From: Haladaptatus cibarius D43
GTDB taxonomy: Archaea; Halobacteriota; Halobacteria; Halobacteriales; Haladaptataceae
Reading direction: 5' to 3'
NCBI RefSeq assembly: GCF_000710615.1
Contig: NZ_JDTH01000001.1
Coordinates: 620,001-684,000 of the forward strand
Length of the DNA stretch: 64,000 nucleotides
The position numbers were made by a program, and so were the translations under genes. Of the stretch, positions 20,527 to 64,000 are shown in pieces (position 1 is the first letter of the stretch; every line of letters starts with the position of its first letter). Below the pieces are notes generated by a model that was not told the DNA's origin, did not search any database, and worked only from the letters and a program-made list of their open reading frames with translations.

Positions 20527-20961
20527 CTATTCGAGGTGGACGATTTCGGGGTCGAACGCCTCCCCCCTCCAGCGCCACGACCCGACGAAGGGGTACGCCC
20601 CGTTCAGAGAGACGATGACGTAGGCGTAGCCGTCCCACGTCGCGTCCGCGGCATCGGTTTCGCTCGGATGGTCTGGCCCTTCCGGATGGGAGTGGTAAAA
20701 TCCGACGACGTCCTGCCCGCGGTCTTCTATCTTTTCCATTATCTCCAGTTGTTCTTCCGGATGAATTTCGTAGTTCGTCTCCGGCGTCTCCGCGACGTTT
20801 TCGGCCTGAAACGTGTCTTCGACTGTGGTCGGACTGCCCTGCGTTCCGGCGAGAATACCGCAAATTTCGGCAGGACGACCCCGGCGTGCGCGACTCACGA
20901 GCGTGTCGTACACTTCGCGCGAGAGGACGAGCATGCACCGTGGTTCATCTTCAGAGTGCAT
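20527..20961 (-). CDS. JAMM/MPN+ metalloprotease (Mov34/PAD-1 family)
   Basis: A 144-residue zinc peptidase with the complete JAMM signature: Glu in EICGILAG and HxHx10D in HSHPEGPDHPSETD. Haloarchaeal proteins of this size include the desampylase that removes SAMP modifiers, and bacterial relatives accompany NlpC/P60 enzymes. This gene lies 38 bases upstream of an NlpC/P60 gene in one transcript, so a role in peptide or isopeptide cleavage alongside it is plausible. A desampylase function cannot be excluded. Starts at 20961 or 20934 (MLVLSREVY) are both possible. Confidence 0.88.
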   Translation of the reverse strand: MHSEDEPRCMLVLSREVYDTLVSRARRGRPAEICGILAGTQGSPTTVEDTFQAENVAETPETNYEIHPEEQLEIMEKIEDRGQDVVGFYHSHPEGPDHPSETDAADATWDGYAYVIVSLNGAYPFVGSWRWRGEAFDPEIVHLE

Positions 20962-23116: not shown

Positions 23117-24040
23117 ATGAATGAGGACGGTTCCCCCGACGAGCGAGGTGTCCATCGCGTCCAGCACGACCTTGCTGGCCCGCAGTCGATTAGCACGACT
23201 GTTACGGTGGCCGTCGCGGACGTTGCGGGTGTCGAACCAGCCGAAATCCCCGAGCAGTTGTACGACGTTATCGACCCGGAAGCCCTCGACAAACTGTTCA
23301 AATCCCGTGACGACGGCACGCCACGACGGGGTGGCCGACTGTCGTTTTCGCTTTACGGCCATCACGTGACGGTTCGCGGCGATGGGTCAATTACGGTACA
23401 AGCCGGACTCGCCCGCATCAAACAACTTGGCGGAAACTTGCTCGTCGTCGGGTCGGTTCCGGACTCCGTCATCGACACGGCAAGTACGCCCCTCCTCGGC
23501 GAAACGAAGCGCGACCGAACGCGACTGTTCGCCCTCCACGACCGAAGCATCTCGACGGCCCGTAGTCGGCTTTCGATGGCCGGATCTATCGGCGAAAACG
23601 CTCACATCGTGAACTATCACACGGATTCGCGCTCGGCGGCGGCCGACGATTCGGTTCGAATCGGCCCCGAAATCGAGCGCGTCGATGGAGACCTGGACGC
23701 GTTCCGCGACGAAATCGTCGCCACAATTCGCCGACTCGACGCGGAGCGCGGCGGGTTCGAACCCGCGGAACTCAGATTCTGTTTCGACACGCTCCGTCCG
23801 TTGGCGGAATCCTACGACGATGCGCTGGTTGATGCCTTCCTCGGCCCGATTTGCGAGGCAGTAAAGGACGTTTCCGGTATGGCTCACTACATCCTTCCGA
23901 TAGAGTACGATTCGCCCCCAGTTCGTGCCATCGCTTCGAAGTTCGACGCCATCGTTGAGCTTCGGGCGGGCGACTCCGGCCCAGAACAGCGCTGGCACCT
24001 TCGGGAAACGGGCTACACCACAGAATGGTTCGACATTTGA
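23117..24040 (+). CDS. HalOD1 domain fused to a DUF7504-like domain
   Basis: About 307 residues from the ATG at 23117; a TTG at 23096 is an alternative. Residues about 20-95 match the haloarchaeal output domain HalOD1 (DVAGVEPAEIPEQLYDVIDPEALDKLF ends in a strand region YGHHVTVRGDGSITV). The remaining part starts with NLLVVGSVPDSVID and ends with a Trp-containing strand (QRWHLRETGYTTEWFDI). It is similar throughout to the protein encoded at 63000-63704 and looks like the family I recall as DUF7504, a RecA/KaiC-like fold without a recognisable Walker A. It is followed after 22 bases by the CHAT protease gene and is probably its sensor or adaptor (inference). Confidence 0.75.
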   Translation: MNEDGSPDERGVHRVQHDLAGPQSISTTVTVAVADVAGVEPAEIPEQLYDVIDPEALDKLFKSRDDGTPRRGGRLSFSLYGHHVTVRGDGSITVQAGLARIKQLGGNLLVVGSVPDSVIDTASTPLLGETKRDRTRLFALHDRSISTARSRLSMAGSIGENAHIVNYHTDSRSAAADDSVRIGPEIERVDGDLDAFRDEIVATIRRLDAERGGFEPAELRFCFDTLRPLAESYDDALVDAFLGPICEAVKDVSGMAHYILPIEYDSPPVRAIASKFDAIVELRAGDSGPEQRWHLRETGYTTEWFDI

Positions 24041-24062
24041 ACAGAGCCGACTACCGACAACG

Positions 24063-26177
24063 ATGAGCGAGGTATCCGTCACCGACGTTGCAGGCGAGGG
24101 CGTCACTCCACAGTTTCGACTCCGCGACGACCTCCCCGGACTCACCGTTATCGACCCGCTCGAACGAAATCAGTTCCAGATAGAAACGTCTCGTCCGGTC
24201 GAGCCACGGGCGGTTCCGGTTTCCGCATTTCACGCACCGGTCGGCGTCGTCACCAGCATCACGACCGCACGGATTCGGTTTTCCGCGCTCCTCGGGGCAT
24301 ACATCCGAACCACCGACAACGAATTGGTGTGTGCAGTAGACCACGAGACGAACGCGACGCTTCCGAACGCCGAGTATTACATCGAACTCACAACGCCTGT
24401 GAAGACGTATTTGCGCGTCGAGTCCGCCATCGACATCGACACGTCGAACGAGCGACTCGACCTCTCGTTCGGCGGCGAAACCACCGTCGAAATCGGGTCG
24501 CGCTCGCGTCACACTCACCCCGGCGGAACCGTGACGACGACGACAGACCCGAAAGACGTGATGGCCGCCGTCTCGTCGTTTGGGTCGGCGCTGAAAACGA
24601 CGAGTCCGGAACGGTCGTTCCCGACGCTTCGCGGTCATCCCCCGGCGGTCGAGTTCGGCGACGAACTGCACGTTCCGGACGAACTGCAACCGCCCGAAAC
24701 GGGAATCAGAATCGAAGTGCCGCCGAAGTTCGAATTCATCTTTCCAATCGCGCCGTTGTCGTACTACCTCGGTGCGACCGTCGTTCCCGGAGAGCATCCC
24801 CGAATCGTGACGAAATCCACGACCATCCCGCTCGACCATCCGGAACGCGGCTTCGAGGGGGAAATCGAACGCGTGTTGAAACAGACGTTCTTTCTCGACT
24901 GCGTGACTCGAACCGAGGGGCTCTATCGAATCGATCTCCACGAACGAGAACAGATCGAACCGCTGGTTGACCTCGATTTTTCAGTCCTCTACGACATGCC
25001 CATTGCGGAACGACTCGAAGCGTACCTCGACGTGCCATTCGCCACACTGTCCGGATTGCTTCCGACGTGGCGGTTGGCAATTCACGTCACCGCAGAACCG
25101 GAAAATAGTACGCACCTTCCGTATGTCATCAGGGATATTCCACTCGTGCGGATGGCAAACGGCATTCGAGAAAACGATGACACCGTGGAGACGGTCGGTA
25201 GCATTCGGGATTTCGCACGCACGGTCGAATCAGATACAAATCGACCGGTCGGTCGCGCCCCAACAGAACGGTACGTCACGCCGCCGAATATCGACACCAC
25301 CGAACGGGCATGGCTCGGTGAAGGTGCGCCGGTCGGCGGCAACAAACTCCTTCCGAAAGGGTTCGAGCATCGACTCGACAAAGAACACTCGACGGAGGAC
25401 ATCAGTATCGCCATCGTCTGCAACGACCCGAAGATGCAGGCCGAATACGAAGATGACCTGTACGGCAACCGTGAGGAACTCCCCTTCGACGTGCAAACGT
25501 ATCGAAACTGCTCGACTGCCGAACTCCACGAACTGCTTCGTTCTCGGACGGACTTTTTCCACTACATCGGCCACGTCGAAGACGGGTCGTTCGTCTGCTC
25601 CGATGGGACGCTCGACCCGTCGGACATCCCGCACGTCGGCGTGGATATGTTCCTCTTGAACGCCTGTCGGTCGTATGTGCCCGGAAAGCGCCTCATCGAA
25701 GCGGGAAGCATCGGTGGCATCGTCACCTACAGCGAAGTTGGAAACGCCGGGGCGACAGTCGTCGGGCGGACGGTTGGCCGTCTCCTCAACACTGGATTCC
25801 CGCTCCGGTCTGCGCTCTCTATCGCCCGCGAACAACGACTCGTCGGGAATCAGTACGTCGTCGTCGGCGACGGGGGCATCGAAATCGTCCAAGCCGACAG
25901 CGGTGTTCCGCTCATCCACTTCGTGGAATCGCTCGATGATGGACGCTATCGGGTTCGTTCGCGTTCGCACCCGGCAAACGGGCGGTCGATGGGTGGAACC
26001 ATTCTGCCGTTCATCGACGGTGTCCAGACGCATTTCCTCTCAGGTGGTGACATCCCAACGGTGACTCTCACGGCGGACGAACTGCGAGCGTACTTCGGCC
26101 TCGAAGAGGCGCCAGTCGTCTACGACGGCACCCTCCGCTGGACATCGGAAATCGATGTCGCCCGAGACTTCTCGTAA
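24063..26177 (+). CDS. CHAT-domain caspase-like protease with large N-terminal region
   Basis: A 704-residue protein. Residues 1-430 are beta-rich with no recognised domain. The C-terminal third looks like a CHAT (clan CD, caspase-like) peptidase: FFHYIGHVEDGSFVCSD with the likely catalytic His504, then DMFLLNACRS with the likely catalytic Cys535. The family's next strand and helix pattern follows (GSIGGIVTYSEVGNAGATVVGRTVGRLL, then a final SALSIAREQ helix). CHAT proteases are activated by partner sensors and cleave host proteins in several defence systems. Here the partner is probably the preceding HalOD1/DUF7504-like protein. The ATG at 24063 is chosen because the upstream frame is the shadow of the preceding gene. 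A paralogue begins at 63709. Confidence 0.75.
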   Translation: MSEVSVTDVAGEGVTPQFRLRDDLPGLTVIDPLERNQFQIETSRPVEPRAVPVSAFHAPVGVVTSITTARIRFSALLGAYIRTTDNELVCAVDHETNATLPNAEYYIELTTPVKTYLRVESAIDIDTSNERLDLSFGGETTVEIGSRSRHTHPGGTVTTTTDPKDVMAAVSSFGSALKTTSPERSFPTLRGHPPAVEFGDELHVPDELQPPETGIRIEVPPKFEFIFPIAPLSYYLGATVVPGEHPRIVTKSTTIPLDHPERGFEGEIERVLKQTFFLDCVTRTEGLYRIDLHEREQIEPLVDLDFSVLYDMPIAERLEAYLDVPFATLSGLLPTWRLAIHVTAEPENSTHLPYVIRDIPLVRMANGIRENDDTVETVGSIRDFARTVESDTNRPVGRAPTERYVTPPNIDTTERAWLGEGAPVGGNKLLPKGFEHRLDKEHSTEDISIAIVCNDPKMQAEYEDDLYGNREELPFDVQTYRNCSTAELHELLRSRTDFFHYIGHVEDGSFVCSDGTLDPSDIPHVGVDMFLLNACRSYVPGKRLIEAGSIGGIVTYSEVGNAGATVVGRTVGRLLNTGFPLRSALSIAREQRLVGNQYVVVGDGGIEIVQADSGVPLIHFVESLDDGRYRVRSRSHPANGRSMGGTILPFIDGVQTHFLSGGDIPTVTLTADELRAYFGLEEAPVVYDGTLRWTSEIDVARDFS

Positions 26178-26209
26178 CGCCCTTCCGTCCGCCGACCCTA
26201 CTCCGGGCA

Positions 26210-26674
26210 ATGACGCAGACGAGCATCGAACGTGCGTTTAATTTACACGATGGATTCGAGCAAAACGGCCCGGGAACGTACGTCGTGACGACGACACCGT
26301 TCGACGGAATCGTTCGACTAGCAGACGAAACCGTTTCGGTGACGGTTCGAACGCCGATGCTCTCGGCAGTGGTCGAGAGCGAATCGGTCGCCGACGTGGT
26401 CGAAGACGGCTGGTTCGAAACGCTCGAACTGCGACTCGAAGACGCACACACCGTCGCGTCCACGGACGACATCACGTCGCCGGTAATCGAGCGCGAGGGC
26501 GACGAAGCCGTACTCTCGCTGGATTTTTCGGGTTATCCGGACAAGGCGGCTGACGACGCGATGGCCGTCGTCGATTTCGTCGAAGGGACGTGGGTGCAAG
26601 GCATTATTCCCGGCTACGAGTACGGTGACCCTGCGGCGGGGCTGCTGTCACAGGCACGCCAGAGCCACGAATAG
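26210..26674 (+). CDS. Small haloarchaeal protein, DUF5813-like
   Basis: A soluble 154-residue acidic protein: NLHDGFEQNGPGTYVVTTTPFDGIV at the start, then VRTPMLSAVVESESVADVVEDGW and a C-terminal region ending WVQGIIPGYEYGDPAAGLL. The pattern matches a haloarchaeal family I recall as DUF5813, distantly YbjN-like, with no known function. It begins 32 bases after the CHAT protease gene on the same strand, so it may be the third member of that cassette. It is also found alone in other haloarchaea, so its membership is uncertain. A strong hairpin terminator follows. Confidence 0.75.
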   Translation: MTQTSIERAFNLHDGFEQNGPGTYVVTTTPFDGIVRLADETVSVTVRTPMLSAVVESESVADVVEDGWFETLELRLEDAHTVASTDDITSPVIEREGDEAVLSLDFSGYPDKAADDAMAVVDFVEGTWVQGIIPGYEYGDPAAGLLSQARQSHE

Positions 26675-60961: not shown

Positions 60962-62119
60962 GTGACCGAGGAAGACGACTGGTTCGAGGCCGCACTTCGT
61001 GACGACGATGGGGAGGAAGACAGTACTGACGACGAGCCAACAGATGAGCCGGATTCGCCCGACTTCCCCGATGCGCCCGATTCGTCGGAACTCCCGACCG
61101 AGAAACGCGAAGATTCCCCCGCAGGCAACCCGGGATTCGGCGCGGACGAGATGGCGACACCCAGTGCTGACCAAGAGACGAAACCTCCCGAAACGCCGGA
61201 CGAGTCGAACACGGACGAATCGAACAGCGAGTCGCTGTTCGACGACGACTTTGCTTCCGCATTTTCGAGCGCACCCGGCGCAGGCCCCAGCAACGAATCG
61301 GATTTCGGTGGCGGGTTCGGCGGCGGCGATGGCGGTTTCGATGCTGGCGGCGGTTTCGATGGTGGGTTCGGCGGCGGGTTCGACACCGGCGGCTTCGACG
61401 ACGAAGCGTTCGAATCGGACATCCCCCGAACCGACATCGGCATCGACGGCCTCGACAGCATGATTCAGGGCGGCGTCCCCGAACGAACCCTGATGGTCGC
61501 TATCGGCAACGCCGGAACCGGGAAAACAACCTTTGGACTCCAGTTTTTAGACCACGCACTGTCGCGCGGCGAAAGCGCCGTCTACGTCACGCTGGAGGAG
61601 AGCCACGAGCGAATCGTCAACAGCGCGACAGAGAAAGGCTGGCCCTACGACGAGTACGTCGAAGATGACCTGCTCGCAATCGTGGATTTAGACCCAATCG
61701 AGATGGCCAACTCGCTGTCGAGCATCCAGAGCGAACTCCCCGGCCTCGTCCGTGATTTCGGCGCGACCCGCCTCGTTCTCGACTCCGTCTCCCTGCTCGA
61801 AATGATGTACGAAGCGCAGTCGTCACGTCGAAACGAGATTTACGACTTCACCCGGAGTCTGAAGCAAGCGGGCGTCACGACCATGCTGACGAGCGAAGCC
61901 AGCGACGACAACCCCTACGCCTCCCGTCACGGCATCATCGAATATCTCACCGACGCCGTGTTCGTCCTCCAGTACGTCCGAAGCACGGACGATTTCCGCG
62001 AAACCCGACTCGCCGTCGAAATTCAGAAGATTCGGGACGCGAACCACTCCCGCGAAATCAAACCCTACGACATCACCGACGAAGGAATCAGCGTGTATCA
62101 GCAGGCGAATCTATTCTAA
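60962..62119 (+). CDS. KaiC-like RecA-family ATPase with Gly/Phe-rich N-terminal linker
   Basis: A 385-residue protein with a GTG start. Residues 1-110 are acidic and disordered (Glu, Asp, Pro, Ser). Residues about 117-155 form a Gly/Phe/Asp repeat (GGGFGGGDGGFDAGGGF, then GGFGGGFDTGGFDDEAF). Then comes one KaiC/GvpD-type ATPase domain: IDGLDSMIQGGVPERTLMV, Walker A GNAGTGKTTF, a Walker B-like region TRLVLDSVS and VEIQKIRDANHSREIKP at the end. KaiC-family proteins in archaea act in signal, motility and gas-vesicle control; the ATPase is single-domain, so it is not a clock KaiC. A strong hairpin follows. Confidence 0.87.
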   Translation: MTEEDDWFEAALRDDDGEEDSTDDEPTDEPDSPDFPDAPDSSELPTEKREDSPAGNPGFGADEMATPSADQETKPPETPDESNTDESNSESLFDDDFASAFSSAPGAGPSNESDFGGGFGGGDGGFDAGGGFDGGFGGGFDTGGFDDEAFESDIPRTDIGIDGLDSMIQGGVPERTLMVAIGNAGTGKTTFGLQFLDHALSRGESAVYVTLEESHERIVNSATEKGWPYDEYVEDDLLAIVDLDPIEMANSLSSIQSELPGLVRDFGATRLVLDSVSLLEMMYEAQSSRRNEIYDFTRSLKQAGVTTMLTSEASDDNPYASRHGIIEYLTDAVFVLQYVRSTDDFRETRLAVEIQKIRDANHSREIKPYDITDEGISVYQQANLF

Positions 62120-62462: not shown

Positions 62463-62891
62463 TTATCGAACTACGGTCACGGGCATCGGCGAGCGTCGAA
62501 CGACGGTTTCAGCGACGCTTCCCAGAAGGATTCGGGAGACGCCGGAGCGGCCGTGACTGCCCATCACGATGTGGTCGAAATCGTTGTCCTCGGCGTAGTC
62601 CACGATGACCTGCGACGGGCGTCCGACTTCCGTCGCCGTCGAGAGGGTCGCACCGTGTTCCTCCGCGGTTTCCCGCGCCTCCGTGAACAGTGCCTCCGCG
62701 CGCGTTTTCGAATCTTCGTACCACTCCTCGGAATAGCCGGGCATCCCGACCGTCGAACTGTACCCCACGTCGATGGGGTCGATGACGTTGATGACGGTAG
62801 TTTCGGCGTCCGGAAACTCCCGCAGTACGTAGTCGAGTGCTTTCGTGGACTGCTCTGACCCGTCGATTGGAACGAGAATCCGCTTTCCCAT
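62463..62891 (-). CDS. Universal stress protein (UspA family)
   Basis: A 142-residue USP (MGKRILVPIDGSEQSTKALDYV, then DFDHIVMGSHGRSGVSRILLGSVAETVVRRSPMPVTVV) with a complete nucleotide-binding motif. The ATG at 62891 is preferred to 62918 because it is the canonical start. Divergent from the second HalOD1-system cassette, with a TATA-like run between. Confidence 0.92.
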   Translation of the reverse strand: MGKRILVPIDGSEQSTKALDYVLREFPDAETTVINVIDPIDVGYSSTVGMPGYSEEWYEDSKTRAEALFTEARETAEEHGATLSTATEVGRPSQVIVDYAEDNDFDHIVMGSHGRSGVSRILLGSVAETVVRRSPMPVTVVR

Positions 62892-62999
62892 GCGACTATC
62901 CACGAGTGGCGTTGTCATAGTATTTCACCCGTGGGAGGGCTTCACGACACAATCACAACCCGAGTGTTTTTATCTTATTACTATCATCAGTAGGGTAAA

Positions 63000-63704
63000 A
63001 TGGGGCTCGACGGTATCGAGTTTCGCGGCGACGAAAGCGTCCCCGGATTCTCGAATCTGCTCGCGGAACTCAAAACAGGCGGATGCAACCTCCTCATCAC
63101 TGGACCGGTGTCAGAACGTGTCAGTGCGCGAGCGACGCGAACGCTTCTTGGCGACCCTGCAGCCGACCGCAAACGGATTGTGGCGCTGACCGATTCGACG
63201 ACGCGACGCGTCGAACCGTGTCTGCCGACCGGAGTTCGACTCGACAGCTCCAACGTCTGGGTCATCGACCAGCGAAACGGCGAGCGGTCGATACCGACCA
63301 GCGCCAGCGTTGCAGACGTCGAACTTCCGTCTCGACGGGATGGCCAAAACGAACTGTGGAATCTCGCCGAGGAAATCGTTCTCGCAATCGGTTTTTTCGA
63401 CACGACGACGGGCGGACTGGAACCGGCCGGACTCCGTCTGTCGGTCGATTCGTTGAGTTTTCTGGCCGAACAGCACTCCCGCACGGAGTTCGAGTGTTTC
63501 TTACGGATGCTCACCGCGATTATTCGGGGCGTGCGAGCAATGGGCCACTACCACCTGCCGATAGCGGACGACGACCCGCTCGTGACGGAACTGTCGCCCC
63601 TGTTCGACGCGCGTATCGAACTCCGCCAACGTGATGGATTGGTGCCGGAACAACGATGGCACGTGCCTGCATACGAACGAAGTACCAACTGGGTACGACT
63701 CTGA
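63000..63704 (+). CDS. DUF7504-like protein, partner of a second CHAT-like gene
   Basis: A 234-residue paralogue of the C-terminal domain of the protein encoded at 23117: NLLITGPVSERVSARATRTLLG, then RAMGHYHLPIADDDPLVTEL, then PEQRWHVPAYERSTNW. There is no HalOD1 domain here. A TTTTTATCTTATT run about 25-35 bases before the ATG is a good TATA box for a leaderless message. The next gene starts four bases after its stop, the same order as in the cassette at 23-26 kb. Confidence 0.8.
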   Translation: MGLDGIEFRGDESVPGFSNLLAELKTGGCNLLITGPVSERVSARATRTLLGDPAADRKRIVALTDSTTRRVEPCLPTGVRLDSSNVWVIDQRNGERSIPTSASVADVELPSRRDGQNELWNLAEEIVLAIGFFDTTTGGLEPAGLRLSVDSLSFLAEQHSRTEFECFLRMLTAIIRGVRAMGHYHLPIADDDPLVTELSPLFDARIELRQRDGLVPEQRWHVPAYERSTNWVRL

Positions 63705-63708
63705 GACG

Positions 63709-64000
63709 ATGCAACCAGCATTCGAACCACCACCGAACCGACCGGGATTGCTCATCAACGACCCCATCGAGAGCGTCAGGTTCGCTCTGTACACGCCCGA
63801 CCAGTCGCCGCTTTGCCCTGCCGACCCGGAGGGGTTTCATTTTCCGGTCGATGCCGCCGTCGAATTTGAAACCAAGAAAATAGAAATTCCGAGGCTGACG
63901 GGGGTGTACGTCCGAACACAGGACGGCGACCTCACGGCGAGCTACAGCGTCACGGACGACGGCACGACGGTTTCGGCTGGTGCGTACAACCTCGAACTCA
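63709..64000 (+). CDS. N-terminal part of a second CHAT-protease-like gene (cut by window end)
   Basis: The first 97 residues (MQPAFEPPPNRPGLLINDPIE, then FHFPVDAAVEFETKKIEIPR, then TGVYVRTQDGDLTASYSV) align in pattern with the N-terminus of the protein encoded at 24063 (LPGLTVIDPLERNQF, FHAPVGVVTSITTARIRF, GAYIRTTDNELVCAVDHET). The protease domain, if present, lies beyond the window, so its activity cannot be judged. The gene begins four bases after the DUF7504-like stop. Confidence 0.7.
   Translation, partial: MQPAFEPPPNRPGLLINDPIESVRFALYTPDQSPLCPADPEGFHFPVDAAVEFETKKIEIPRLTGVYVRTQDGDLTASYSVTDDGTTVSAGAYNLEL

Follow-up and report, generated by a model that had tools for sequence, protein, structure and literature searches.

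A CHAT-type protease homologue paired with a predicted pseudo-KaiC partner in haloarchaea: a candidate module for regulated proteolysis

CHAT proteases have been described chiefly in the context of CRISPR, CBASS and chromosome segregation. Among haloarchaeal signalling proteins, HalOD1-iKaiC was listed as a signalling architecture by Galperin et al. 2018 (PMC5847659), who cite the KaiC survey of Makarova et al. 2017 (PMC5717392), and in the available part of their census this architecture is given without a protease partner. A search of the literature on haloarchaea combined with CHAT or metacaspase returned nothing naming the protease family described below, and the pair may be mentioned in the survey by Makarova et al. 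2017. Here we describe a locus in which both elements, a predicted CHAT-type protease and a HalOD1 protein of the KaiC fold, are encoded side by side.

The locus lies at 23117-26674 in a stretch of 64,000 nucleotides from Haladaptatus cibarius D43, hereafter the window, where an earlier reading of the sequence had proposed a signalling or defence cassette of three co-oriented genes. The coordinates confirmed this arrangement, with all three genes on one strand and gaps of 22 bases between genes 1 and 2 and of 32 bases between genes 2 and 3.

23117..24040, plus strand: gene 1, HalOD1-DUF7504 protein of 307 aa, predicted pseudo-KaiC partner or regulator (Pfam, AF2, Foldseek)
24063..26177, plus strand: gene 2, predicted CHAT-type clan CD cysteine protease homologue of 704 aa (AF2 model, Foldseek)
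26210..26674, plus strand: gene 3, DUF5813 protein of 154 aa (Pfam), probably a bystander

Pfam analysis identified HalOD1 and DUF7504 in the gene 1 product and DUF5813 in the gene 3 product (2e-48), and the 704-aa product of gene 2 had no match in Pfam and no noteworthy one in PADLOC or NCBIfam. The closest relative was found in H. litoreus (93% identical). Comparison with the H. litoreus orthologues gave dN/dS values of 0.14 (protease) and 0.06 (HalOD1-DUF7504 partner), pointing to purifying selection on both genes, and since both values are low the gene pair is not regarded as a product of chance. The DUF5813-like gene had also been counted as part of the cassette, but it was rejected as a third component since it follows the seven Haladaptatus orthologues only; its product is probably a genus-level bystander. 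A JAMM desampylase gene (20527-20961, minus strand; NCBIfam desamp_Halo) precedes the cassette by about 2 kb.

The gene 2 product was modelled with AF2 from an alignment of 60 sequences, resulting in a model with a pLDDT of 88.7 and a pTM of 0.89. Foldseek comparison of this model with the PDB returned clan CD proteases as top matches, namely separase (5fby, 8e-7), the SAVED-CHAT filament (8tl0, 9e-7) and gingipain K (2e-6), with Craspase TPR-CHAT and procaspase-3 and -7 further down the list. The model has the caspase-haemoglobinase fold of CHAT and other clan CD peptidases, in agreement with the CHAT-type fold originally proposed for the C-terminal third, and the C-terminal part of the protein is, as modelled, a CHAT-type clan CD cysteine protease homologue. 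Searching the PDB by sequence, with either the protease sequence or its profile, gave no meaningful match, and a viral fold library returned two matches below 0.001, both weak. The regions and residues of the protease are located as follows.

24063..25352, plus strand: N-terminal region, residues 1-430, with a beta-rich domain (~17-160) followed by an alpha/beta domain
25380..25922, plus strand: predicted catalytic CHAT domain, about residues 440-620 (Foldseek; CHAT profile alignment in paralogues)
25572..25574, plus strand: codon of the predicted catalytic His504 (FFHYIGHVED), invariant in 59/59 and 81/81 relatives
25665..25667, plus strand: codon of the predicted catalytic Cys535 (FLLNACRS), likewise invariant in 59/59 and 81/81 relatives

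Both predicted catalytic residues occupy the positions claimed for them, and they stand in the GH and NxCxS context that is typical of the His-Cys dyad in CHAT and clan CD peptidases. The original prediction could have been refuted by homologues devoid of His504 and Cys535, and this attempt failed, the dyad being present in every member of both sets of relatives. Even among the 39 intact members of a divergent set the dyad was kept in 38, while the N-terminal motifs RGHPP (190-194) and DCVTRTEG (279-286), a conserved feature of the family's main branch, fade. The description of the whole N-terminus as beta-rich held for residues ~17-160 and had to be revised for residues 163 to ~345, which are mixed alpha/beta in the AF2 model; a disordered linker is predicted at residues 368-395.

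At the sequence level the family lies close to the border of the Pfam CHAT model (PF12770). The model matched 11 of 37 relatives, the best at 2e-5, and the highest score among the relatives inspected singly was 23.7 bits, over the part containing His504 and Cys535, against a cut-off of 24 bits; the cut-off was thus not reached by relatives lying just under it, nor by the window protein, which gave no match. In the whole genome PF12770 matched three protease paralogues only, with 17-19 bits. Some plasmid homologues of the protease carry the annotation 'CHAT domain' or 'caspase family'.

The gene 1 product was analysed in the same way. Its AF2 model (pLDDT 86.7) showed the KaiC CI domain 4tlb as the best Foldseek match (E 2e-8), and the Walker A motif GK[ST] was found in 0/45 aligned partner-type proteins. 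According to the model, the DUF7504 domain is a KaiC fold without Walker A, that is, a pseudo-KaiC.

23183..23401, plus strand: HalOD1 domain, residues 23-95 (Pfam PF18545, 4e-24)
23429..23962, plus strand: DUF7504 domain, predicted KaiC fold without Walker A, residues 105-282 (Pfam PF24336, 4e-49)
23981..24037, plus strand: C-terminal tail PEQRWH...TTEWF, residues 289-307, candidate docking element, present in 41/45 partners

HalOD1 is optional, being missing from many partners at other loci. The QRWH...W tail lies outside the Pfam domain and is shared by most of the DUF7504 partner proteins, as listed above. In this genome eight DUF7504 proteins have this tail or one of its variants, five adjacent to a protease gene and three elsewhere, and this number equals that of the proteases, a coincidence that is suggestive only. 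Thirty DUF7504 loci were taken from the 15 genomes devoid of the protease family; 28 of their proteins could be matched, and the tail was absent from all 28.

The pairing of the two genes recurs within the genome, where 15 DUF7504 hits were counted in 3.9 Mb and a DUF7504 gene lies directly upstream, on the same strand, of five of the eight protease genes. The second pair within the window is located at its end.

63000..63704, plus strand: second partner gene, DUF7504 without HalOD1, tail PEQRWHVPAYERSTNWVRL
63710..64000, plus strand: start of the second protease paralogue, which extends past the window end (683697-685769 of contig C1)

About 0.9 kb upstream of this second pair a gene at 60962-62119 encodes a KaiC-type protein whose Walker A motif is intact (GNAGTGKTTFG), and a UspA-like gene (62463-62918) lies between them on the opposite strand. 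At another locus of the same genome (L164:1974-6220) a paralogue is flanked on both sides by stand-alone HalOD1 genes, with another DUF7504-type gene downstream.

A neighbourhood survey in haloarchaea, suggested together with the original prediction, bore out the association: a DUF7504 and/or HalOD1 gene lies upstream of 51 of 111 protease-family members drawn from many families, the neighbour counts being approximate because neighbouring genes were called with a purpose-built codon model. This neighbour label requires 10 changes on the protease tree, a FastTree reconstruction with long-branch warnings, and the pairing is therefore not the outcome of one recent event. The distance matrices of 47 protease-partner pairs correlated with an r value of 0.91, a value as high being reached in 0 of 2000 permutations, and the same correlation amounted to 0.92 inside Haladaptatus alone, where species descent weighs less. 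As about half of the loci are devoid of an adjacent DUF7504 gene, the family as a whole does not require this partner. In a divergent branch (L165:1356-6122) the protease gene is flanked by a serine hydroxymethyltransferase gene on one side and by the gene of the transcriptional regulator TbsP on the other, a layout seen in several haloarchaeal families (TbsP where tested), and in the Haloarcula branch a REC-PAS response regulator comes next. The shared theme of these neighbours is regulation, with the partners swapped between branches.

We consider it reasonably probable that genes 1 and 2 form a two-part, signal-gated module for regulated proteolysis, in which the pseudo-KaiC partner controls the CHAT-type protease. 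The gene 2 product would be a cytoplasmic CHAT-type cysteine endopeptidase acting through the predicted His504/Cys535 dyad, and the gene 1 product its dedicated partner, with a KaiC-fold domain that lacks the ATP-binding P-loop and, in this copy, with HalOD1. A cell signal would enter via HalOD1 or via the wider KaiC-type network and change the state of the pseudo-KaiC, which would hold or free the protease, probably through its C-terminal QRWH...W tail. Once released, the protease may cleave one or a few target proteins. Whereas both folds, the invariant dyad, the missing Walker A, the physical pairing and the co-evolution were computed, we infer catalysis, the direct contact, the direction of control and the targets.

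The family is widely distributed, being detected in 180 of the 195 Halobacteria genomes sampled (92%), and the protease-partner pair is not a rare cassette. This genome contains eight copies of the protease, and between 6 and 18 matches per genome were counted across the genus Haladaptatus. Distant members occur in four further genomes, all from one family of the phylum. In a distant member from outside Halobacteria (L171) both predicted catalytic residues are gone, and it is possibly a pseudo-protease. Relatives of the protease were also found on 25 haloarchaeal plasmids. In two Haladaptatus genomes (G002, G004) the orthologue of the protease studied here exists only in broken or fragmentary form, so the cell can dispense with this copy. 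In H. halobius (L063) the orthologue is split by an apparent frameshift, and at G004:C1:694854-695449 it is reduced to fragments. A CHAT-type protease thus appears to belong to the standing equipment of nearly all haloarchaea and is paired here with a KaiC-type pseudo-enzyme.

In a wider reading, the whole family would be a haloarchaeal caspase-like protease system, a near-universal, multicopy CHAT peptidase switched by pseudo-KaiC partners, and the source of the caspase-like activity of Haloferax. High activity of this kind was reported in Haloferax volcanii extracts (PMC3615174); the authors describe archaeal genomes as being without clear homologues, and the available part of their article names no gene for the activity. 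The protease family is a natural candidate for the caspase-like activity in Haloferax and Haloarcula. We regard the wider reading as rather unlikely. The same article, citing earlier work of its authors, mentions that Pyrococcus and Sulfolobus showed similar activity, which argues against the link. Each of the 15 Haloferax genomes (15/15) carries exactly one member of the family, and the reported orphan activity is therefore directly testable; this single-copy gene provides a concrete handle on that activity.

An unlikely alternative is an anti-virus suicide system, in which the partner would sense infection and the CHAT protease would kill the cell or arrest it. SAVED-CHAT and Craspase, which act in bacterial defence, rank among the nearest folds, some copies of the protease are plasmid-borne, and copy number varies strongly in the genus (6-18 per genome), this variation leaving a small chance for such a function. 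A family present in 92% of sampled Halobacteria is, however, far steadier than typical defence systems. Housekeeping genes, among them chorismate synthase, folate genes, UspA and uracil-DNA glycosylase, make up most of the neighbourhood in this genome, none of the three proteins at 23117-26674 was matched by PADLOC, and searches of viral contigs and of phage records yielded no relative of the protease. PADLOC analysis of 50 neighbours matched 44 families, with one protein each among those listed; as these matches apparently come from one and the same helicase-like protein, the neighbourhood is not considered a defence island. The proposal of a signalling or defence pair was thus upheld for the protease assignment and for the signalling partner, by structure search, conservation, cross-family synteny and co-evolution, and received no positive support as regards defence.

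Pseudo-proteases are known in clan CD, and it may be argued that the protease fold has been retained for binding only, as a non-catalytic scaffold or receptor within the pair. The partner, for its part, resembles a pseudo-enzyme and the distant member L171 has neither dyad residue, both in keeping with such a role, but His504 and Cys535 are unchanged in all close relatives, and in the divergent branches they persist longer than the other conserved motifs, which makes a purely binding function improbable. Quite improbable, finally, is that the adjacency reflects a general clustering of haloarchaeal signalling genes with no specific partnership, for although DUF7504 genes occur in every genome (up to 17 hits) and about half of the family members have no DUF7504 neighbour, gene order and strand are fixed, the distances co-vary at 0.91 and do so also inside one genus, and genomes without the protease showed no DUF7504 protein of the tailed type.

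The proposed signal-gated proteolysis module can be placed beside several described systems. With the disk-determining factor DdfA (NCBIfam NF053557; PMC10869688) the gene 1 product shares HalOD1 similarity, scoring 66.1 bits under a cut-off of 70, over the HalOD1 part only. The resemblance to HalOD1-iKaiC (arCOG02452) is closer: gene 1 shows the same architecture, HalOD1 followed by a KaiC-fold domain, and the loss of GK[ST] from all 45 partners corresponds to the inactivated ATPase of that group. If the proposed module is real, the KaiC-based signalling hubs postulated in archaea would gain an output, namely proteolysis. On the protease side, the family differs from SAVED-CHAT and Craspase in that its 430 N-terminal residues contain no recognised TPR or SAVED domain, its partner is a predicted pseudo-KaiC, and it is not tied to CRISPR or CBASS; unlike CHAT peptidases in general (PF12770), its sequences score below the CHAT cut-off. 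With these same peptidases, including SAVED-CHAT, the Craspase TPR-CHAT (Csx29) and separase, it shares the predicted C-terminal clan CD fold and the His/Cys dyad, and, as proposed for the family, they are under the control of a separate protein or domain.
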